From IMG/VR virus record IMGVR_UViG_3300047550_001382, positions 1 to 31,442 of that record: 31,442 nucleotides of DNA; one strand, given 5' to 3'. Positions 4,287 to 24,994 of the stretch are shown here, piece after piece. This stretch comes from a virus. The notes beneath the pieces are model-generated. The model saw only the letters and a program-made list of their open reading frames with translations, was not told the DNA's origin and did no database searches. Both the position numbers and the translations under genes were made by a program. How positions within the stretch are numbered: position 1 is the stretch's first letter; each line of letters opens with the position of its first letter.

Positions 4287-4595
4287 TCATGCCGCCTTGA
4301 TTTTGCGACTCGCGGACCAGATGAGCCCGCCAATCGTCACCGCCACCGTCGCCACCTGCGTGAGAGCGTCATCACTCATCGAGAGCCCCAGCGGACCGGC
4401 CGCTGTCATTGCATGACGCAAGAGTGCTAACACCAGTTGAATGACCAGCGCCTTGTCCATCGTCGTCTCCTCGAATTGAAATTCGCCTTCGGTCGCAGCC
4501 GCTGCCGCTTCCGCCTTTTTTCGTTGTCTGCGTGCGCGGACTCGCTGCACGGGCTTAACCAACAGCCACAGTTTCGCTACGGTGATCGGGTCCAC
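4287..4595 (-). CDS. Holin with two in-frame starts (102 aa and 57 aa forms)
   Basis: The short form starts at the ATG at 4460, preceded by a strong GAGGAG six bases upstream, and gives 57 residues with two hydrophobic segments (about VIQLVLALLRHAMTAAG and VATVAVTIGGLIWSA) and a basic tail SRKIKAA, typical of small two-helix phage holins. The frame also extends upstream to a GTG at 4595, inside the lysozyme gene's 3' end, adding a basic, Ala-rich N-terminus (VRARRQRKKAEAAAAA). A long positively charged form and a short form from one gene recall the holin/antiholin dual start of lambda S. Located immediately after lysozyme and before the spanin-like gene. Which form is used, or both, cannot be decided from sequence alone. 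Confidence 0.7.
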   Translation of the reverse strand: MDPITVAKLWLLVKPVQRVRARRQRKKAEAAAAATEGEFQFEETTMDKALVIQLVLALLRHAMTAAGPLGLSMSDDALTQVATVAVTIGGLIWSASRKIKAA

Positions 4596-5005
4596 GTTCC
4601 GCTCCTCATCGCGTCCGCTAGTTTCTTTCCACGTCGTCCGACCTGTCCGTACCACTTGCTCGAGACAAGCTCGGCCGCCGCCGCCGCATAATCCCCGCGA
4701 GTGATCGCGGCGTTCGCCTTAGCAAACTTCCGCCAGCCTGGAGCGCCGAGATTGAATACGAGATCGCAAACCACAAGGCGACGAACGTCATCAAGAGCAG
4801 TCCAGTAAGGCAAAGTGCTGCACGTAGATAGAACAGACTCAATGTCTCTCCCCAGCAGGTAGTCAATCTCGTCATCCCGCAGCCCCACGTCGTCGAGATT
4901 GCGGCCGCACCCGATGGTGAGCTTGCCGACCGTGTCGCGGTAAGGTTTAGATCGACGACCCTCGGCCCACTCGAGGTGGGCGCGGAGTTCGGTCTCGAGA
5001 TCCAT
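4577..5005 (-). CDS. Endolysin, T4/P22-type lysozyme (GH24), 142 aa
   Basis: The ATG at 5005 overlaps the stop of the second tailspike gene (TGATG). The sequence carries the GH24 signature: WAEGRRSKPY then RDTVGKLTIGCGRN. E15, D24 and T30 have exactly the 9- and 6-residue spacing of the T4 lysozyme catalytic triad (E11, D20, T26). The length, 142 residues, is close to the P22 enzyme. It would cut the beta-1,4 glycan bonds of peptidoglycan. There is no signal peptide or N-terminal anchor, so it should depend on the holin for export. A diverged copy of its first 13 codons lies at 6986-7024 between the two tailspike genes. Confidence 0.92.
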   Translation of the reverse strand: MDLETELRAHLEWAEGRRSKPYRDTVGKLTIGCGRNLDDVGLRDDEIDYLLGRDIESVLSTCSTLPYWTALDDVRRLVVCDLVFNLGAPGWRKFAKANAAITRGDYAAAAAELVSSKWYGQVGRRGKKLADAMRSGTWTRSP

Positions 5006-6954
5006 CAGAGGTATTCGATTCCGACGTACCCGGCGTGATTGTTCGCGCCGGAGGTCTTGCGGAAATAAATCCGGCCCTCGGTCCACGATCCGGCACCGAC
5101 CTTGAAGGCCGACCCTATCGCCGTTCCGACATTTATCACTGCCTCGAAATAACCGGAACTGGGATTAGTCGTCGCAATCGTCGCGGCCAGCACGCCGTCC
5201 GTGGCATATGCGAAAGTGCCAGGCACAGCCCAGTCGGCATTGTCCTTGACGATGTAGACCTCGTAGGTCGTGGTCTCTGTGCGGCGCGTGAAATCCTTGA
5301 AGATGAACGCCTTCAACGGTCGCGCGTGCTTCGGCAGTTTGAACTTCACGTCCGTCATGCCAGACGTGAGCAGAGAGATCTCGTAGATCATCCGCCGAGG
5401 TTGAGCGACCTGCAGACCATGACCGAGGTGGTCAATGTTCGCCATGTCATCGAGCGCGAGGAAGCTGTCGGTAGGGATCGAGTACGTGTGGCCGGTCTTC
5501 GGTCGCGAGTCAATCAACACCCTGCCAAGCCGGTTGGCTGAGTAAGTCCCGTATGCACTTGACGTGTTGACGTTAAGCGTGACGTGGCTCGTGTCTCTAA
5601 TGATGACGCTGCCTTGAGAACCGGCAAGCGTTGCGCCTGCGTATGCGGTGAACCCGTCCGTTGGGTATTGCTGAATGATTAGTTCGGCAGTATTCAGAAC
5701 GTCGAGGCCGTCGCACAGGAACGTGAGCCGCCCTGCGTAACGTAGCAGGTCTATCGTCTGCCCGAATCCGTTGGCCTGTCCGCCACGGATGCAGATCGAA
5801 ACTTCCTGCGCGGCGTTTTTGGTTCCGGCGACCTGCTCGAACAGCACGCCGTTGTGCGTACTGCGCCACTCAAAGCGCACGTTGCTGAACTCAACCCGTG
5901 CGCCTTGGAATAACGTCGTCCCGGCAGAATCGTAGTATTGCTTGTAGAGCTTTCCTCTGCCAATGATTGATCCGCCAATAAACTTGAAATCGCCGCCCGC
6001 TCTGTCGTCGATGAATGTGTACTGCTCTCCCACGTCGTCGTTCTCGAAATCAGTCGCGACAAACGTGTTATTCACGCTCTGGATGTTCTCGCAGATGATC
6101 CCGGTGCGGACGTTGTAGAACTTGCAGTTCAGCCACAGCCCTTCAGAACACCAAGAGTGATTTGTTCCGACTAGAGGCGTGGCGGACGTGAGCCATATGC
6201 CCGTCTTGAAGTTCGTGAAGTCACAGTCCACGAACTCGTTCTTCCAATTCGCTCCCGCGCCACCTGCGCCCGTCAGTTCGTCCTTAATCTTGATGCCGAT
6301 GCAGGTGTTCGGCGTGCCGTCGTAGAACCGAATCCCGACGAAGCGGGACCGCGAACTGGTGTTCGTCAGATCAATCACCACTGTGTCCGACGCTGCGCCG
6401 GAGATCGTGATCGAGACCTCGCGTTTCGTTTCGGCGTGAACGTCCGCGTAGAGCGGGACCGATAGCGTGCCGTTGATTGTGTACGCGCCATTAGGGATGA
6501 ACCCACGGTGGCCGGTTGAGACCATCGCGTTCCAGGCGGAGACAAAACCGCTTGACGTGGTGATGGTGCCATAGCGTCGGATGTCGCCGGGCTCGTATCC
6601 GTAATCCGTTGGTGTGACACCTGCGGTGACTTCAGCCGCCGTGCGCGGGTACAGGGCTCGACCGATCTCGTCCTGCGTGAGCGAGTCGCTCACCGGATCC
6701 ACGGTGTAGATCAACGCGCCTGCCGAAGTCTTCCACGTCAGCTTGTACGTGACCTCGGGGTCGAGCCAGATCGGCTCGAACACACCGTCCGCATCTGCCT
6801 CGACGGGGTTTGCGTGCGTGATCGTGAGACCTGAATTGGTGTACACGTCCGCAGGGGTCGTGGTCCCGGTGACGTAGAAGTACAGTTTCGAGCCCGCATA
6901 GGTTTGCGAGCCCGAGACCGCAACCGGCTTCGGGAGACGGAATAGTGAGGGCAT
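5005..6954 (-). CDS. Tailspike 2: head-binding domain plus beta-helix, 649 aa
   Basis: The N-terminus (about residues 1-120) parallels that of the upstream tailspike: KLYFYVTGTTTPADVYT, HANPVEADADGVFEPI and a junction RTAAEVTAGVTPTDYGYEPG. This is a P22 gp9-like virion-binding domain. After the junction the sequence becomes a right-handed beta-helix-like stretch rich in short strands, Asn and Gly (about 130-470), then a C-terminal beta-rich part ending GYVGIEYL. The body differs from the first tailspike, so it likely recognises or cleaves another surface polysaccharide. Catalytic residues are not identifiable by eye. The ATG follows the relic reading frame's TAA after one base. Confidence 0.85.
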   Translation of the reverse strand: MPSLFRLPKPVAVSGSQTYAGSKLYFYVTGTTTPADVYTNSGLTITHANPVEADADGVFEPIWLDPEVTYKLTWKTSAGALIYTVDPVSDSLTQDEIGRALYPRTAAEVTAGVTPTDYGYEPGDIRRYGTITTSSGFVSAWNAMVSTGHRGFIPNGAYTINGTLSVPLYADVHAETKREVSITISGAASDTVVIDLTNTSSRSRFVGIRFYDGTPNTCIGIKIKDELTGAGGAGANWKNEFVDCDFTNFKTGIWLTSATPLVGTNHSWCSEGLWLNCKFYNVRTGIICENIQSVNNTFVATDFENDDVGEQYTFIDDRAGGDFKFIGGSIIGRGKLYKQYYDSAGTTLFQGARVEFSNVRFEWRSTHNGVLFEQVAGTKNAAQEVSICIRGGQANGFGQTIDLLRYAGRLTFLCDGLDVLNTAELIIQQYPTDGFTAYAGATLAGSQGSVIIRDTSHVTLNVNTSSAYGTYSANRLGRVLIDSRPKTGHTYSIPTDSFLALDDMANIDHLGHGLQVAQPRRMIYEISLLTSGMTDVKFKLPKHARPLKAFIFKDFTRRTETTTYEVYIVKDNADWAVPGTFAYATDGVLAATIATTNPSSGYFEAVINVGTAIGSAFKVGAGSWTEGRIYFRKTSGANNHAGYVGIEYL

Positions 6955-6955
6955 G

Positions 6956-7024
6956 TTAGGTCCCGCTTATGGGTGCAGATATTTCCCACTCAAGGTGGGC
7001 GCGGAGTTCGGTCTTGAGGTTCAT
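6956..7024 (-). pseudogene. Relic of the lysozyme 5' end between the tailspikes
   Basis: The stop of tailspike 1 (TAATG) is followed by a 22-codon frame. Its first 13 codons, MNLKTELRAHLEW, match the lysozyme start MDLETELRAHLEW; by my alignment 35 of 39 bases are identical between 6986-7024 and 4967-5005. Similarity stops after the TGG codon, and the frame runs on to EISAPISGT and a TAA just before tailspike 2. The simplest reading is that tailspike 1 was once followed directly by lysozyme, and a second tailspike module with its own lysozyme junction was inserted or duplicated. The fragment keeps a coupled start and could still be translated as a leader peptide. Confidence 0.85.
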
Positions 7025-8769
7025 TAGGCGCTCTGGCTCTTGATCGCCCAGCCAAACCGATACCAGGCCAACGTGACCCGACCAGCCGTAGCGGATGCAA
7101 AAGTCACTATTGACGATCCGCCAGAGGAAACGATGTCAAGCGTGTACGCGCCGAGACCCGTACGAATAATCGTTATCTCAAGCCCGTTGAAGGCGTTGTT
7201 TTGCGCGCTACCTGAAATGCTCGGCAGCGTGACTGTTCGGTTCGCGGTTAGCGTGGTGTCATATCGGATGATCGTCGCGTCACCGATTGCCCATGTGTAA
7301 TTCGCATCGCCCTTGTCGTTTGAGACGCGCGGCTCGGCCCAGCTATCTACTCGAACTGCATCGGCGCCCGACGTTGACGTGGCCTCTGTGAGATAGATGT
7401 TGGTTATGATCTCAGAGGGACGGATGTAGCCGATGCGCGCTCCACGCACAGGAGCGCCGCTCGACGATGCGCCCTGGGCGATATACAGCCGCCCGCTTGT
7501 GATCGTAGTGTCCGGCAATTCCAAGATGTTGATGTCATACCGCCCGTTGCCAGAACTAAAGCCGAGGATGGTGACCGGGTTCGTTCCGCCCGGATTGATC
7601 GTCACAGTTCTAAAATGCAGCAGCCCGACGTGCATGCGCGAGTCTGGGAAGTCGAACAATCTTGCGCCAGATGTTGTGTACGTTCCGACTTCCAGCTTGA
7701 ACGCCTGGCAGTCTATCGTCGTACCCTCGCCCGCGTTGATAAGGCGCGGCCCGTTCGGCGCGTTGTTGATCTCAATATTCGCCATCGTCGTGTTGGCGCA
7801 CCCGACGAGGTTGAAAATCGACTCGGACGCTTCGACCGAATCAGCCAGAATGTAGATGTGTCCGAAACGGCCGTTCGGATGCCCTAATGACGACGTATCG
7901 CCCAGGTAAAAGAACGACCCGGAGACGTTCTGGCCCATCGTCACCCGGTCAATGTTGAACCCCCACACCGCTGCGCCGTTGCTATTGTCGTGAGCAAAGC
8001 ACCGATAGGCGTTGTCGATGTGAACGTCTTGCACTGTGAAATTGTAAAAACCGGCTCCCGGCGTTCCCGTGTCGCACATGAACGAGAACGCCACCGATCC
8101 CGACTGAGCAGACGTTTGTGCGCTGCTGTAATCGAGTCGCAAAGACTCAATAGTCCATCCATGCGTGTTCGCGGTCGTGAACCGGAGAATGCGCTTATTG
8201 TTCGTGTACTGCTTAATGATCGTCCCGCCGCGCGACTGGCCGCGAATCTTCCATCGGGCGGCGAAAGGGATCAGTAACTCGTCGGTGATTTTGTACGTGC
8301 CGTCAGGCAAATATAGTTCTCCGCCTGTCAGCGTAAGACAGAGGTCCATGGCAGTTTGAATCGCTGCCGTGTCGTCCGTTGTGCCGTTACCGGCCGCGCC
8401 GTACCGCCGGACATTCCCCGGCGCGTATCCGTAATCCGTTGGCGTCACGCCCGCAGAAATCTCGGCAGCGGTGCGGGCGTAGACCGGCTCGGCACTCGGC
8501 ACCGTGTCCACCTGATAGATCTGCACCCCACTGGAGTCGGTCAGCTTCACCCGGTACTGCCACACGGAGGGATTCAGGTAGATCGGCGGGAACACGCCCT
8601 CGGAGTCGGCCTCGACGGGGTTTGAGTGCGCTACATCGAGTGCGGGCGTCGTGTAGACATTCGCGGGCGTGGAAGTACCTGTCAGGTAGAAATAGAGTTT
8701 CCCTGCGGGCACGACATCGCCGTTGTCGAGCGGCACCTGTTTCGGTAGGGCAAAGAGTGTTCCTGCCAT
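7024..8769 (-). CDS. Tailspike 1: head-binding domain plus pectate-lyase-type beta-helix, 581 aa
   Basis: ATG with AGGAA upstream. Residues 1-110 are the virion-binding part (KLYFYLTGTSTPANVYT, HSNPVEADSEGVFPPI). The linker RTAAEISAGVTPTDYGYAPG leads into VRRYGAAGNGTTDDTAAIQT (about 121-140), the typical opening of the pectate-lyase-3 beta-helix fold used by phage depolymerases, followed by GGELYLPDGTYKI. The C-terminus (GDANYTWAIGDATI ... AWYRFGWAIKSQSA) resembles trimer-tip domains shared by many tail proteins. It is expected to be a trimeric spike that binds and perhaps degrades the host surface glycan. The N-terminal domain is clearly paralogous to that of the next gene. Confidence 0.88.
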   Translation of the reverse strand: MAGTLFALPKQVPLDNGDVVPAGKLYFYLTGTSTPANVYTTPALDVAHSNPVEADSEGVFPPIYLNPSVWQYRVKLTDSSGVQIYQVDTVPSAEPVYARTAAEISAGVTPTDYGYAPGNVRRYGAAGNGTTDDTAAIQTAMDLCLTLTGGELYLPDGTYKITDELLIPFAARWKIRGQSRGGTIIKQYTNNKRILRFTTANTHGWTIESLRLDYSSAQTSAQSGSVAFSFMCDTGTPGAGFYNFTVQDVHIDNAYRCFAHDNSNGAAVWGFNIDRVTMGQNVSGSFFYLGDTSSLGHPNGRFGHIYILADSVEASESIFNLVGCANTTMANIEINNAPNGPRLINAGEGTTIDCQAFKLEVGTYTTSGARLFDFPDSRMHVGLLHFRTVTINPGGTNPVTILGFSSGNGRYDINILELPDTTITSGRLYIAQGASSSGAPVRGARIGYIRPSEIITNIYLTEATSTSGADAVRVDSWAEPRVSNDKGDANYTWAIGDATIIRYDTTLTANRTVTLPSISGSAQNNAFNGLEITIIRTGLGAYTLDIVSSGGSSIVTFASATAGRVTLAWYRFGWAIKSQSA

Positions 8770-8777
8770 TTTTGTTC

Positions 8778-10709
8778 CTACTTCAGAGAATTGCTCGGCG
8801 GGTCGGAGTAGATAGAGCGTGGCTTGAGTTTCGTGGTCTTCGGAGGCGACATAGACACGCCCTTCCCTGGCGCGAGAGCATTCCCGACTTCACGGCGCAA
8901 CGCTCGCTCCTCAAACAGTCGCTTTGCGAAGGTGCCCACAGGTATCCCGTGCGCAGCGTAATTCGCCGCCCCTTCCGCTGCCGACGCGCCGACTTTGGTG
9001 GCGGCAGAGACAAAGGTGTTCGAGTTGTTGATGTAGCTGCCTCTCGGTTGCGCAGTCGAGTAGGTTGCGACATTGCGCAGCCTGCCCAACGTCTCCGCCG
9101 TGTCAGCGTCGAAAATGAGCCCCGCCTTCGGGTCAAGCTGCCTGAGAGCTTTTGCAAACCCGGCCGCGCTGAAGTTGCCAGAGTAATTCGGGTCGAGGCG
9201 TGCGGCATCGCGCAGATAGTCAAGCACTGCGACCGCAACGGTCTGGCGCGCGCCCGGCACGGATTCCACAGCGGACATCAGTCGCGACACGTCGTCACGC
9301 GCAGCACCGAGAACAAACTTCTGCACAAACTTGTCCGCTGATATGGATGACTCCACCGCTGCTGAGTAGGCAGGGTCGGCCTCAAGCTCCGCAAACCGCT
9401 CGCGCGCCGCGCGTCTGGCAGCGTCCGCAATCGGTTTTAACCGTTCTACGCCGGAGCCGGGGAACAGCGGCACGTCCTCCAGTGCTTGCAGCATGATCCT
9501 GGCGGCGGCCTTCTCGTTGCCGTTAGATGAGGACCGGATGGTCGCCGCGAGATTGCTTCGCAGCGACTCAAACTGCTCAAACGTCATGTTCTTCGCTGCG
9601 GCGAAGGCTTTCAACTGACTCATCTCGACGGCGGGCGCGAACTCGTACTTGAGCTTCTTGTGCAGGTTCTCGGTAGCGTCTCGCAGGATCGCGTTAGCAT
9701 CGACCGGGACACGGCCGCCGAACTCGTCCTCAAGCCGCTTATACAGTGCGCGGATGTTTGCGTTTCTGGCTTCGTCGATTTTTCGGTAGGCAGCAAGCAG
9801 CGTATCGCCGTGCTCGACCATGTTGGTCGTGAACACGTCCTCGCCTACTCGATCCCGAAGAGATTGCAGGTTTTCCCCGAGCCTCTTGTTAGTCTCAGCC
9901 ATCCGATAGGCAAGCTGCGGTCGATTGCCGCGCAGGTTTCTCTCGTTGGAGAGCGCCACGATGTCTTGCGTCGCCTCTCCAGTCGTCAGCGCAATCGGTA
10001 CCGGCAGTGACTCGGCCTCGATGTAGCGTTGAATCGCCTCGCGGTTGAGCGGCACGCCTCTGCGCTCCGCTGCTTGGACAGCAGCGCGCAGTTCTGGGGA
10101 CGCGCCCTCAAGCGAGATCGCTGCGGCCGATGCCCCGACAGAATCGTTGGACGCCAGCCCGCCCCGGCCCACGGGCTCGGGCGCTGCGTTCGGTGCGTTC
10201 AGGCTCGTGCGCCGAGCGGTTTGAGACAACAGCCTCGGAGCGCCGAATGCCGCTACGTTCAACACAGACCCGGCGAAATCCCGCACCTCCGGCCCCGCGA
10301 ACTGCTCGACAATGTTGCCGAGAGCCCGCGTCGCTTGCGGGATGTAGGTCGCCTCTAGCGCCCTATTGAGCCCACCGGCAACCATCTCGCCCTGCGGCGT
10401 GCGGAGTCGGTCATCGCGGACCAGACCTTGATCTGTCGCGATCTGCTCGCGAGCACGCTGTTGTGCCCCCAGGTAGGTGTCGTCGGGCATAATCGCCCCG
10501 GCGAGCCCTGCGAGCGACGACACTGGCGCGTTCACCATTGAGCGCGCCGAACTGACCGCAACATCACCGACGCCGATTGCTGCGTCCTTTAATGCTTGCG
10601 GAGAGGTGAGCAAGTCGCGACGAGTGCGGATGTCTGGAGGCCCAACGAATTGACGCGGAGCGTCCGGCACAAATCGCGATTTTGGTCGTTGGTCAGGTAT
10701 GAAAGGCAT
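8778..10709 (-). CDS. Large DNA-ejection protein (gp16-like position), 643 aa
   Basis: The ATG at 10709 overlaps the preceding stop (TAATG); a GTG at 10718 would add three residues. The product is a long, Ala/Arg-rich, mainly helical protein with no enzymatic motif seen. It has mildly hydrophobic helical stretches near residues 45-75 (SSARSMVNAPVSSLAGLAGA) and 125-165. In P22-like phages the last and largest of three ejection proteins (gp16) lies directly before the tailspike gene, as here. Such proteins leave the capsid with the DNA and form a conduit across the envelope. The assignment rests on place, size and composition; family-level detail is limited. Confidence 0.65.
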   Translation of the reverse strand: MPFIPDQRPKSRFVPDAPRQFVGPPDIRTRRDLLTSPQALKDAAIGVGDVAVSSARSMVNAPVSSLAGLAGAIMPDDTYLGAQQRAREQIATDQGLVRDDRLRTPQGEMVAGGLNRALEATYIPQATRALGNIVEQFAGPEVRDFAGSVLNVAAFGAPRLLSQTARRTSLNAPNAAPEPVGRGGLASNDSVGASAAAISLEGASPELRAAVQAAERRGVPLNREAIQRYIEAESLPVPIALTTGEATQDIVALSNERNLRGNRPQLAYRMAETNKRLGENLQSLRDRVGEDVFTTNMVEHGDTLLAAYRKIDEARNANIRALYKRLEDEFGGRVPVDANAILRDATENLHKKLKYEFAPAVEMSQLKAFAAAKNMTFEQFESLRSNLAATIRSSSNGNEKAAARIMLQALEDVPLFPGSGVERLKPIADAARRAARERFAELEADPAYSAAVESSISADKFVQKFVLGAARDDVSRLMSAVESVPGARQTVAVAVLDYLRDAARLDPNYSGNFSAAGFAKALRQLDPKAGLIFDADTAETLGRLRNVATYSTAQPRGSYINNSNTFVSAATKVGASAAEGAANYAAHGIPVGTFAKRLFEERALRREVGNALAPGKGVSMSPPKTTKLKPRSIYSDPPSNSLK

Positions 10710-11860
10710 TACTGCCACACTCCTGTGACTCCGCCAATATTGATGCGCGTGCCGCTCGTGATCTGGCCCGCCGCCGCCGCTGCTTCAGCTTCGGCCTCAG
10801 TGTTGAACGTCGGCATCTGCTGGGCACCAAACGCTTCGGCAGGATTCGGGCCGACAATGTCGTTCTCAGTGAATCCGTATTGTTTTGCGTATTGAGCGTA
10901 GCGGGCGCGCTCCTGCTCATACGGGAGCCTCAGAGCCTCAACCTGTCCTTGTAGAGCGTTGAGGATCTCCGCTCTCATTTTCGGGGTGAGTCGTCCTTCG
11001 CCTGTTATCTGACTGTTGACGGCCGCCGCCATCTTTTGCAGCCACGGCGATGCGTTCATCGATAGCTGTAGCTCGCCCTCGCGCACGACGCTCGTCGGAT
11101 CGAAAATCTTGCCGAGCGCGTAGATGACTGAAAGGTCGCCCGCCATATCATTCGCAGCGTTCTTCGCGCGCTCAAATATTGGCAACACGGCTCTGTAGGT
11201 TTTGACGGGGGGAGAGTCCTCTAGTTCTTTCCGCAATTGCATGCTGTCTCGGAACGAGTTCACGTCTCCAGTCTTAGGAGGGCCATCGGCAATCTTGTTG
11301 CCTTGGGCATCGAACCTTGCCTGCCCCTCGCCAAGGGTAAACCCATCGACAGGCTTGTCCCGCCCTGATGCGATCAGACGCCCCTGCGAATCGTATCGAG
11401 CCTGCCCTTCGCTAAGGGTAAACCCTTCCGGTTGGGACAGTTCCCCGCCATACACTCTGACGTTGTCGAGGGCCTGTTGACGGATTGAGTCGTCGTTGTC
11501 GTTGGGATCGATCCGAAGGTGCTCGTCGCCAAAACCAACACCCTTCGCGGCCGCAATAAAACTCGGGTCTGACAATGCGCGCTGATACAGTCTGAGCGGT
11601 TGATCGGACTGCGCGATGGCGGATGACCAACGCCCAAACACTCCGCGAGCGTTCGCAGTCTGCTGCTCAGAGAGCGCCTGCCGCTGCTGCGCGGCGGCCT
11701 CGTCCTTGAGATCAATATCTTGCCGCAGGGCTCTCTGCTCGAGCGGGGCTGCGTCCACGCGATTCTGCGCGAGCGCGTTTGTTAACCGCTCACGCTCCAT
11801 CATCGTCGGATTGAACCGGGGGGAGTTCTGGGCGAGGAAGTTGGCTACATCGACGGGCAT
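10709..11860 (-). CDS. Ejection/internal virion protein, 383 aa
   Basis: ATG start 29 bases after the preceding gene. The N-terminal 75 residues form a charged, Gln-rich helix (RQALSEQQTANARG), followed at 146-193 by two near-copies of a 21-residue motif (FTLSEGQARYDSQG and FTLGEGQARFDAQG), then a helical part (200-335) and an Ala/Glu-rich tail (EAEAEAAAAAG) closing with INIGGVTGVWQ. It lies in the middle of three genes at the ejection-protein position of P22-like phages (7, 20, 16). I infer a pilot/ejection or internal head protein; no enzyme motif is present. Confidence 0.6.
   Translation of the reverse strand: MPVDVANFLAQNSPRFNPTMMERERLTNALAQNRVDAAPLEQRALRQDIDLKDEAAAQQRQALSEQQTANARGVFGRWSSAIAQSDQPLRLYQRALSDPSFIAAAKGVGFGDEHLRIDPNDNDDSIRQQALDNVRVYGGELSQPEGFTLSEGQARYDSQGRLIASGRDKPVDGFTLGEGQARFDAQGNKIADGPPKTGDVNSFRDSMQLRKELEDSPPVKTYRAVLPIFERAKNAANDMAGDLSVIYALGKIFDPTSVVREGELQLSMNASPWLQKMAAAVNSQITGEGRLTPKMRAEILNALQGQVEALRLPYEQERARYAQYAKQYGFTENDIVGPNPAEAFGAQQMPTFNTEAEAEAAAAAGQITSGTRINIGGVTGVWQ
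11282..11425 (-). repeat. Tandem 81-bp coding duplication in the 383-aa ejection protein
   Basis: Two copies at 11363-11425 and 11282-11344 encode GFTLSEGQARYDSQGRLIAS-G and GFTLGEGQARFDAQGNKIAD-G, offset by 27 residues. The copies have diverged but clearly share an origin. They probably form two repeated beta hairpins that bind a partner. Confidence 0.75.
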
Positions 11861-12832: not shown

Positions 12833-13291
12833 TCAGGCTGTGAGCCCGAGAGTGACCAGCGCAGCGCGCAAATTGTTGATGGCGTTCTTGAGAGCGGTGA
12901 GGCTGTCGTTGATGTCCCCATCCGCACCGCTGCCGGTGATCGTGGTCACCGATACCAGCGAGGTTGCCGGCCTTGCCACGGGCGTCGTCCCGTAGAACCC
13001 CACGTTGCCGCTAAACTGTACTGATTGTGAGAATGCCCACGACACCGCTTGCACGAGCGAGACGACCTGTGTCGGGGTCAGTTGTTGTAGGGTGCCATCC
13101 GTGGCGAGGCGACCGAGAATCCTGTCTGCGGTCATTTCCTGAAACTTGGCGAGCGTGACTGAGTTGTCGATCAGTTCAGCCGTGCCTACTGAATTGTCGT
13201 CAGCCGCTAAGACCTGCTCTTTGCACCACTTCGCGCTCTGGCGCGAGTCCATGCTCGAGAACGGGATCTGTCCCGGCTGTAGCTTCGGCAC
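12833..13291 (-). CDS. Tail-needle-position virion protein, 152 aa
   Basis: The GTG at 13291 shares its G with the TAG of the gp10-like gene. The N-terminus (PKLQPGQIPFSSMDSRQSAKW) is followed by a helical region with VGTAELIDNSVTLAKFQEM, a repeat-like motif frequent in phage fibre stalks, and a C-terminal part NVGFYGTTPVARPA ... LTALKNAINNLRAALVTLGL, a tip-and-helix ending frequent in short phage fibres. It occupies the place of P22 gene 26 (tail needle) directly after gene 10. The length is shorter than gp26, so 'needle or short fibre' is an inference from position and style. Confidence 0.55.
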   Translation of the reverse strand: MPKLQPGQIPFSSMDSRQSAKWCKEQVLAADDNSVGTAELIDNSVTLAKFQEMTADRILGRLATDGTLQQLTPTQVVSLVQAVSWAFSQSVQFSGNVGFYGTTPVARPATSLVSVTTITGSGADGDINDSLTALKNAINNLRAALVTLGLTA

Positions 13292-22986: not shown

Positions 22987-24309
22987 TTAGTGCAGGAACA
23001 TCATGGTTGCTATTAGGAGGAACTCTTCTTCCTCCGCCGCTTTCCTCAGCTCTCGATCTAGTGCTTCCAGTGCCGAGAAGTTCCCCTGCCTCAGGGCTCG
23101 TGCGTAGGCAGTCGCGACTTTCTCGCTGTAGTCTTTCGCGGCCTCGAGATCCGCGTGAGCCCGCGCTAGTTCTCCGAGCCTCTGTAGCTCTTTGCGTCGC
23201 TCGTCCTCAGCCTCCTGAACTCTCAGGAGTTGCGCGATCTCTCTTGAGGTCTCATCGGCAATCTGCGCCGACTCGGTCTCGAGCCGCTCGCGCTCCCGCT
23301 CCCGCTCCCTGCGCCGCCGGAGTTCAATCTCGTACTCGTTGTGGAACAGCCATCCGCCAGAGGGCTGCTCGGTCGGTGTCTGCGTCTGCGCGGCGAGAAC
23401 CCCCGCCGCGTCGAAGGTGAGACTCGAGACGCCTAGCAACTCGCCGCTGCCGGTGAGCACTCCGGTCGCAGTGAACGACAGCCCCGCCGTGCCGCTCAGG
23501 GCTCCGGCGGATGCTGATGTCAGCGTGCCGCTGCCACCGAACGTCAGGCCGCTCGAGCCGAGTAATGCCCCGGCCCCGGTCAGTGCGCCGGACGGAGTGA
23601 ACGAGAGAGCGGCCGAACCGAGTAGCGCCCCTGAGCCCGTCAGTACCGCGACTGGCGTGTACGTGACCGACGCCGCGCCGAGCAACGAGCCCGCGCCGCT
23701 CAATGTCGCGGTCGGAGTGAATGTCAGGCCAGCCGATCCGGTCAGCGCACCGGACCCCGTGAGCACAGCGACTGGGGTGAATGTCAGCCCCGCGCTGCCC
23801 GCAAGCGCGCCCGACCCGGTCAACGACCCGGTCGGCGTAAAACTGAGCGAGGTCGAGCCTGTCAGATCGCCGCTGGCGGCGCTCGAGAGCGTGCCGCTCA
23901 CGCTGAACGTGAGAGCACTCGTTCCCGACAGAGCGCCCGATCCCGTCAGCGCGGCAGTCGGAGTAAATGTGACCGCGCTCGTGCCGGTCAGAGCACCCGC
24001 GCCCGTTAGGGTTGCGGTCGGCGCGAAACTGAGCGCGCTCGATCCTGAGAGCGCCCCCGACCCCGTTAGGGTGGCAGCAGGGGTAAACGTCAGCGTCGAT
24101 GCGCCCGCCATTCGCGCGGTGAACGCACCAGATACTGCAAACGTCAGCGCAGCCGCGCCGATTAGAGCACCAGCACCCGTGAGAGTTGTGCTCGATCCGA
24201 ACGTGAGCGATGCCGTTCCGGTCATCTCCCCTGAAGGGGGAGCGTAACTTGGGATTAGCTGCGCCCGTGGGATGTAGCGCAGCATCCACGGCCGCAGAAA
24301 TAGCGCCAT
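22987..24309 (-). CDS. Repeat protein: fourteen ~20-residue repeats plus coiled-coil tail, 440 aa
   Basis: After a short hydrophobic N-terminus, residues 29-305 are made of about 14 copies of a Ser/Thr/Ala/Gly/Leu repeat with consensus LTGSGALxGSxxLTFTPxxx. Residues 331-430 turn sharply into a charged coiled coil starting RRRRERERERERLE. The C-terminus (EEFLLIATMMFLH) is hydrophobic. Regular 20-residue beta repeats followed by a helix suggest a beta-solenoid or fibre-like stalk. The gene lies in the accessory block before the terminase genes, so it may be a virion fibre or a surface protein; neither signal peptide nor LPXTG anchor is seen. No family is recognised. Confidence 0.75.
   Translation of the reverse strand: MALFLRPWMLRYIPRAQLIPSYAPPSGEMTGTASLTFGSSTTLTGAGALIGAAALTFAVSGAFTARMAGASTLTFTPAATLTGSGALSGSSALSFAPTATLTGAGALTGTSAVTFTPTAALTGSGALSGTSALTFSVSGTLSSAASGDLTGSTSLSFTPTGSLTGSGALAGSAGLTFTPVAVLTGSGALTGSAGLTFTPTATLSGAGSLLGAASVTYTPVAVLTGSGALLGSAALSFTPSGALTGAGALLGSSGLTFGGSGTLTSASAGALSGTAGLSFTATGVLTGSGELLGVSSLTFDAAGVLAAQTQTPTEQPSGGWLFHNEYEIELRRRRERERERERLETESAQIADETSREIAQLLRVQEAEDERRKELQRLGELARAHADLEAAKDYSEKVATAYARALRQGNFSALEALDRELRKAAEEEEFLLIATMMFLH
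23395..24225 (-). repeat. Degenerate in-frame 60-bp tandem repeat array
   Basis: The LTF-like core (SLTF, ALTF, TLTF, ALSF, AVTF ...) recurs 14 times, mostly every 20 codons, with one 18- and two 22-codon intervals. The array encodes residues 29-305 of the 440-aa protein. All copies have diverged at synonymous and some amino-acid positions, so it is an old array under selection on the protein rather than a recent expansion. Confidence 0.85.
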
Positions 24310-24559: not shown

Positions 24560-24994
24560 CTAGTCAACGGTGATGTCGAGGGCCCCGGCAGCGAATGAGG
24601 GTGTCACGCCGTTGCTCACCGTCAACGACGACGTACCCGAGAACAGCAGATTGCCCGTGCCGCTCGAGTCCGTGCCGATGCCAAAATGGGTCACGGTCGA
24701 GCCAGTAACACCGCAGGCCGCAAACGTAATCGCGTTATCGTTGTCCGTCACGCCTGACGCATGCGTCCATTGCGCAGCCGCGCGAGCAACGCTCACTCGA
24801 GCATAGTTCGTATAGGCGCTCTCGCTCGTGGTTTGAGTACCGGCCTCGCCAGGATCGCCCGTGTGCAATGAAATGTAGAACACACCCGCCGTTGCCGAGC
24901 CGCGCAAGCCTCCGGCGTCACCGATGAGGGTGTAATCCGTATTCTCAAAAACGAGCCGCATGATGCCCGCTTCAAAGCCGTTTGATGCACTCAT
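24560..24994 (-). CDS. Phage virion-associated protein with 'SLHTGDPG' motif, 144 aa
   Basis: ATG start, coupled to the preceding gene with the stop and start adjacent. Motifs FYISLHTGDPGEAGTQTTSE and YTNYARVSVAR, then THFGIGTDSSGTGNLLFSG, are widespread in small phage structural proteins often labelled tail-fibre-associated. They indicate a compact beta domain. Together with the two upstream neighbours it probably forms a surface or fibre complex. No catalytic residues are apparent. Confidence 0.7.
   Translation of the reverse strand: MSASNGFEAGIMRLVFENTDYTLIGDAGGLRGSATAGVFYISLHTGDPGEAGTQTTSESAYTNYARVSVARAAAQWTHASGVTDNDNAITFAACGVTGSTVTHFGIGTDSSGTGNLLFSGTSSLTVSNGVTPSFAAGALDITVD

Follow-up and report, generated by a model that had tools for sequence, protein, structure and literature searches.

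Relaxed homologous or illegitimate recombination underlies the mosaicism of phage genomes (PMC3945230), and in lytic coliphages a conserved sequence lying just downstream of the spike genes has been proposed as a recombination site (PMC10408124). The locus examined here belongs to a 31,442-base IMG/VR virus record, the whole of which is called the window, and it carries the remnant of a lysozyme start between two tailspike genes. As with the motifs flanking the receptor-binding domains of coliphages, the window has a short conserved joint just downstream of a spike; the coliphage motif, on the other hand, is non-coding and terminator-like, whereas the joint of the window consists of the first codons of a lysozyme gene, with a second copy between the stacked spikes (PMC10408124). 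The window also resembles classical mosaicism, in which related phages exchange modules and the joints carry short stretches of diverged homology, but mosaicism is a replacement while here a module appears to be added and its joint duplicated (PMC3945230). In the Xanthomonas phages Xp10, OP1 and Xop411, short direct repeats are found in or around the duplicated host-range parts of the tail fibre, as is the case here, although the duplication lies inside one fibre gene and the window has two stacked genes (PMC2248197). According to the available part of the report on the branched multi-tailspike loci of Ackermannviridae, several spike genes have N-terminal domains in common and undergo recombination among themselves (PMC11414711); that part deals with a different type of phage with branching domains and mentions no gene-start relic, and the extra spike it describes had been introduced by engineering, the outcome being fusion or deletion. 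The locus of the window is a known kind of event in a clearly preserved fossil and not a new system. It offers an unusually legible trace of a short-tailed phage gaining a second receptor-binding protein, with the joint known to the base.

Organisation of the tailspike locus

The phage of the window is short-tailed, and its head genes (terminase, portal, coat, head closure Hc3 and adaptor) are P22-like; the late genes are carried by the minus strand, where most of them overlap in a tightly packed operon. On this strand, a 646-aa gene is followed by spike 1, a 22-codon frame, spike 2 and the lysozyme (Table 1), so that whatever comes after tailspike 1 has lower coordinates.

Table 1. Features of the tailspike-lysozyme locus, in order of transcription
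Feature	Position	Strand	Basis
646-aa gene upstream of spikes	8778..10718	-	conserved neighbour; relatives found, several upstream of spikes
Tailspike 1, 581 aa; head-binding N-terminal domain and pectate-lyase-like body	7024..8769	-	ORF; PF12708 E 2.6e-11; PDB 7eeq E 1.4e-16
Spike 1 head-binding domain coding region, about residues 1-125	8395..8769	-	alignment with spike 2
Relic of lysozyme codons 1-13 (35/39 identical); start codon and spike 1 stop overlap in TAATG	6986..7024	-	repeat match
22-codon mini-ORF built on relic; TAA one base before spike 2 ATG	6956..7024	-	ORF
31-nt tail from relic to spike 2; presumed spike 2 leader from donor phage; putative crossover at 5' edge	6955..6985	-	lysozyme similarity ends here; weak likeness to spike 1 leader
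Tailspike 2, 649 aa; head-binding domain of the spike 1 family, body unrelated to that of spike 1	5005..6954	-	ORF; 7eeq E 5.9e-15
Spike 2 head-binding domain coding region, about residues 1-129	6568..6954	-	alignment with spike 1
Lysozyme (endolysin), intact, 142 aa; start codon and spike 2 stop overlap in TGATG	4577..5005	-	PF00959 E 3.8e-9; phrog_7 endolysin
43-nt direct repeat, lysozyme-start copy; 88% to 6985-7027; two copies flank spike 2	4966..5008	-	repeat search

The N-termini of both spikes matched the head-binding domain of the tailspike in PDB entry 7eeq, from cyanophage Pam1. Such a domain is one hallmark of the P22/Pam1 type of tailspike, the other being a trimeric beta-helix body that cleaves polysaccharide. 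Downstream of this domain, the body of spike 1 matched the pectate-lyase-like family PF12708, and no family match was obtained for that of spike 2. The two spikes align over about residues 1-170 at 44% identity and show no significant similarity to each other beyond that point, the bodies being unrelated, which is the arrangement described in the first-pass annotation of this sequence (a related N-terminal domain on differing bodies). Within the head-binding domains, identity is 60% for nucleotides and 54% for amino acids over 124 aligned codons. Structure predictions made without alignment (mean pLDDT of 39 and 35) were too poor for a comparison of folds. The lysozyme that closes the locus is a T4-type endolysin (PF00959).

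A truncated lysozyme start between the two tailspikes

The minus-strand segment 7024-6986 shares 35 of its 39 bases with the start of the lysozyme gene (5005-4967), exactly as had been noticed in the first-pass annotation, and 38 of 43 when the overlapping stop codons are counted. All four differences are transitions, and the longest identical run extends over 22 bases. The runner-up among 39-base matches to the lysozyme start, on either strand of the whole window, reached 23/39, and an independent repeat search returned the same pair (43 nt, 88%; 4966-5008 and 6985-7027). None of the other gene starts in the window exceeded 18/39 against the lysozyme start; therefore, the likeness of the relic doesn't come from a shared style of ribosome start.

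Both copies are in the same reading frame, and the ATG of each overlaps the stop codon of a spike, TAATG for spike 1 and TGATG for spike 2. The similarity stops after GAGTGGG and is followed by nine further codons and then by TAA-C-ATG at spike 2, the complete 22-codon frame being translated as MNLKTELRAHLEWEISAPISGT*. The earlier proposal that this frame contains a piece of the lysozyme start is consequently supported by its 35/39 match, which keeps the lysozyme frame from the ATG onwards and has no equal in the window. Since the relic reproduces only the beginning of a gene that is complete nearby, it is a gene remnant. It ends two codons before the Glu of the AEG motif, presumably the catalytic residue by inference from T4 lysozyme, and thus cannot be an active enzyme. 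No match to the peptide TELRAHLEW was found by a degenerate search in IMG/VR or with a similar pattern in GTDB genomes. The tail of the mini-ORF (EISAPISGT) was also considered as the end of a donor gene and was set aside, a by-eye comparison with the C-termini of genes upstream of the spikes of relatives having given no clear match.

Tandem spike junctions in related viral contigs

The DNA of the region had no match in 50,697 phage records, and single-protein searches of IMG/VR with spike 1 and spike 2 found no relatives; neither parent genomes nor a single-spike form was seen in these searches. The nearest phage relative, L154 (93% identity in the coat protein), stops short of the spike genes. 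Several hundred loci were obtained when profiles of the head-binding domain, the head-closure protein, the 646-aa protein and the lysozyme were run against IMG/VR, and that of the lysozyme against GTDB genomes as well; the counts depend on HMM thresholds and include contig fragments. After the first three of these searches, 39 loci, the window included, had two or three tandem genes with a head-binding domain. Stacked spikes are ordinary among related viral contigs.

The spike-spike gap measures 69 nt in the window compared to 14 nt or less at 37 other tandem junctions (33 once contigs fetched twice are removed), where the genes mostly overlap or abut. A copy of the downstream sequence was found at none of these 37 junctions, the top score being 13, within or near the shuffled range, compared to 28 in the window. 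That score came from 13 identical bases in a row at the junction of L133, rejected as a chance match inside a gene. A survey of 224 lysozyme genes in 221 loci, that of the window included, likewise revealed no second copy of the lysozyme start for the 223 others (best score of 14 versus 28 in the window). The scar is therefore absent from the same joint in 37 of 37 cases, in relatives that are distant, and no frame resembling the 22-codon one lies between spikes in these related, distant contigs, as a conserved gene would. The relic-leaving insertion had been presented in the first-pass annotation as a way in which phages stack receptor-binding modules; as a general route it finds no support here, tandem spikes being common in related contigs that lack a relic. 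The start-codon relic between tandem spikes nonetheless provides a search rule for stacking events, of which this first survey yielded no second case.

Among distant relatives, the lysozyme start overlaps or abuts the stop codon of a spike without any scar in L002 (ATGGTAG) and L147 (TAA directly followed by ATG), the lysozyme following a spike-like C-terminus in L002 and a spike in L147 and L148; in L393, it overlaps or abuts the stop codon of an unrelated 289-aa protein. The same lysozyme start is found behind two unrelated spike bodies in the window, which implies that spikes had been exchanged at the boundary before. Together with the lysozymes abutting or overlapping the preceding stop in L002, L393 and L147, this agrees with the proposal that the spike/lysozyme boundary is a recombination joint, and indicates that it was used more than once.

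The podoviral tandem spikes of ctkAd229 (MW202691) resemble those of the window in their number and in their 7eeq type of head-binding domain, but they are separated by 2 nt, lack a relic and are followed by a different gene. Three tandem head-binding-domain genes (325, 611 and 672 aa), with a one-base overlap or directly abutting, were observed in L101 (3188-8019). In many related loci (e.g. L090, L092, L095 and L160), a short head-binding-domain protein of about 290-320 aa directly precedes a long spike; it often has a GFTxSGTKG-like motif near its end and is perhaps an adaptor spike.

Origin and possible role of the relic

The relic differs from the lysozyme start at 10% of bases (95% CI 3-24%), whereas the head-binding domains of the two spikes differ at 40%, and the probability of four or fewer differences in 39 bases at the latter rate is 4e-5. 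Since the head-binding domains are presumably under selection, a functionless relic born of the same duplication should be at least as diverged as they are. The contrast indicates that the scar is younger than the difference between the spikes, even if 39 bases make its age poorly datable. This comparison had been named beforehand in the first-pass annotation, and it goes against the single duplication of a tailspike module that was proposed there. A tandem duplication would show equal divergence along the whole unit, while identity is here 90% for the relic and 60% for the N-terminal domains, the bodies are unrelated, and the 31 bases before spike 2 are only weakly like those before spike 1, mainly near the ribosome site. 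From the earlier proposal of a recombination at the spike/lysozyme junction, the scar between two spike genes is consequently well supported and the duplication of a spike is not. The added spike being already different, the event is one of acquisition rather than of copying followed by divergence.

The 22-codon frame is probably the scar of one unequal crossover between two related phages whose spikes already differed. From the repeat with its positions and frame, from the divergence contrast and from the absence of a scar at the other tandem junctions, we infer two parents, a single event and its direction. In each parent, the lysozyme would have come directly after a spike, its ATG overlapping the spike stop. 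Phage A would have supplied the left arm, which includes spike 1 and extends to lysozyme codon 13, and phage B the right arm, beginning 31 bases upstream of B's own spike and comprising spike 2 and then the intact lysozyme of B. A single crossover of this kind would give two different spikes and one working lysozyme, with the lysozyme start of phage A left as a relic. No homology explaining the join was found at the crossover point. The unequal crossover agrees with the idea of a recombination site downstream of spikes (PMC10408124), with relaxed recombination (PMC3945230) and with the instability of added spikes (PMC11414711), and it would predict a parent in which spike 1 is followed by a lysozyme starting MNLKTELRAHLEW.

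The relic may owe its survival to a frame that continues as far as the spike 2 start and could keep translation coupled in the packed operon. It is conceivable, though on balance doubtful, that the frame is now kept chiefly as a leader or coupling mini-ORF through which ribosomes that finish spike 1 (stop in TAATG) reach the start of spike 2 (TAA-C-ATG), a present use compatible with an origin as a scar. Its stop falls one base short of the spike 2 ATG, for which the chance is about 0.05, and the genes of the operon overlap; this position of the stop is only suggestive of coupling. On the other hand, spike 2 has a weak ribosome-site-like sequence of its own (GCGGGAC), about equal to that of spike 1 (-5.3 versus -4.8 kcal/mol), no RNA structure is predicted to hide its start (z 1.25), and the frame is conserved in no relative among the related contigs.

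Less probable as an origin is a tandem duplication of the leader, spike and lysozyme start in one genome, followed by a swap in which one spike received its body and head-binding domain from another phage. Such a history yields the observed order of spike, relic, spike and lysozyme and is in line with the frequent exchange of spikes between phages (PMC10408124); however, two events are needed, and a plain duplication, without the swap, should leave leaders and head-binding domains that match as well as the relic, which they do not.

Whichever way the 43-nt repeats arose, recombination across them would be predicted to excise spike 2, so that a full-length lysozyme would come directly after spike 1. 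It is nevertheless very unlikely that spike 2 is a removable cassette, with one-spike and two-spike phages alternating in the population. In its favour, the copies lie precisely on either side of spike 2 and share the lysozyme frame, and engineered tandem spikes were lost or fused through recombination (PMC11414711); against it, the deleted form was not seen, 22 identical bases are short and nothing points to a programmed use. Slighter still is the likelihood that the lysozyme start serves as a reusable docking sequence, between copies of which spike cassettes would be gained and lost, with one- and two-spike forms interconverting and the lysozyme undamaged. Finally, although the locus comes from one metagenomic contig, a chance similarity or an assembly artefact, chimera included, is hardly credible in view of a runner-up match of 23/39, of copies that differ at four sites and so are not one sequence read twice, of reading frames that are intact throughout and of a join that is not shared sequence.

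Additional features of the genome

Other parts of the minus strand provided separate observations. The 152-aa protein encoded at 12833-13291 is 100% identical over residues 1-150 to its counterpart in L154 (L154:11389-11838), compared to 93% for the coat and 80% for the head-closure protein, indicating a recent mosaic exchange nearby. A gene with a methyltransferase domain (PF08241; 15066-15707) is located in the structural operon between the coat and adaptor genes. The 440-aa protein at 22987-24309, for which no Pfam match was obtained, consists largely of repeats of about 20 residues rich in Thr, Gly, Ala and Leu, encoded by a family of 60-nt DNA repeats that are 62-73% alike. Upstream of the terminase genes, the frame at 24560-24994 matched podophage GP4 fiber I gp80 (PF23140, E 3.8e-21), and the 413-aa protein at 1351-2592 showed a weak match, under the curated cut-off, to ART-PolyVal, the ADP-ribosyltransferase in polyvalent proteins (E 1.6e-5).
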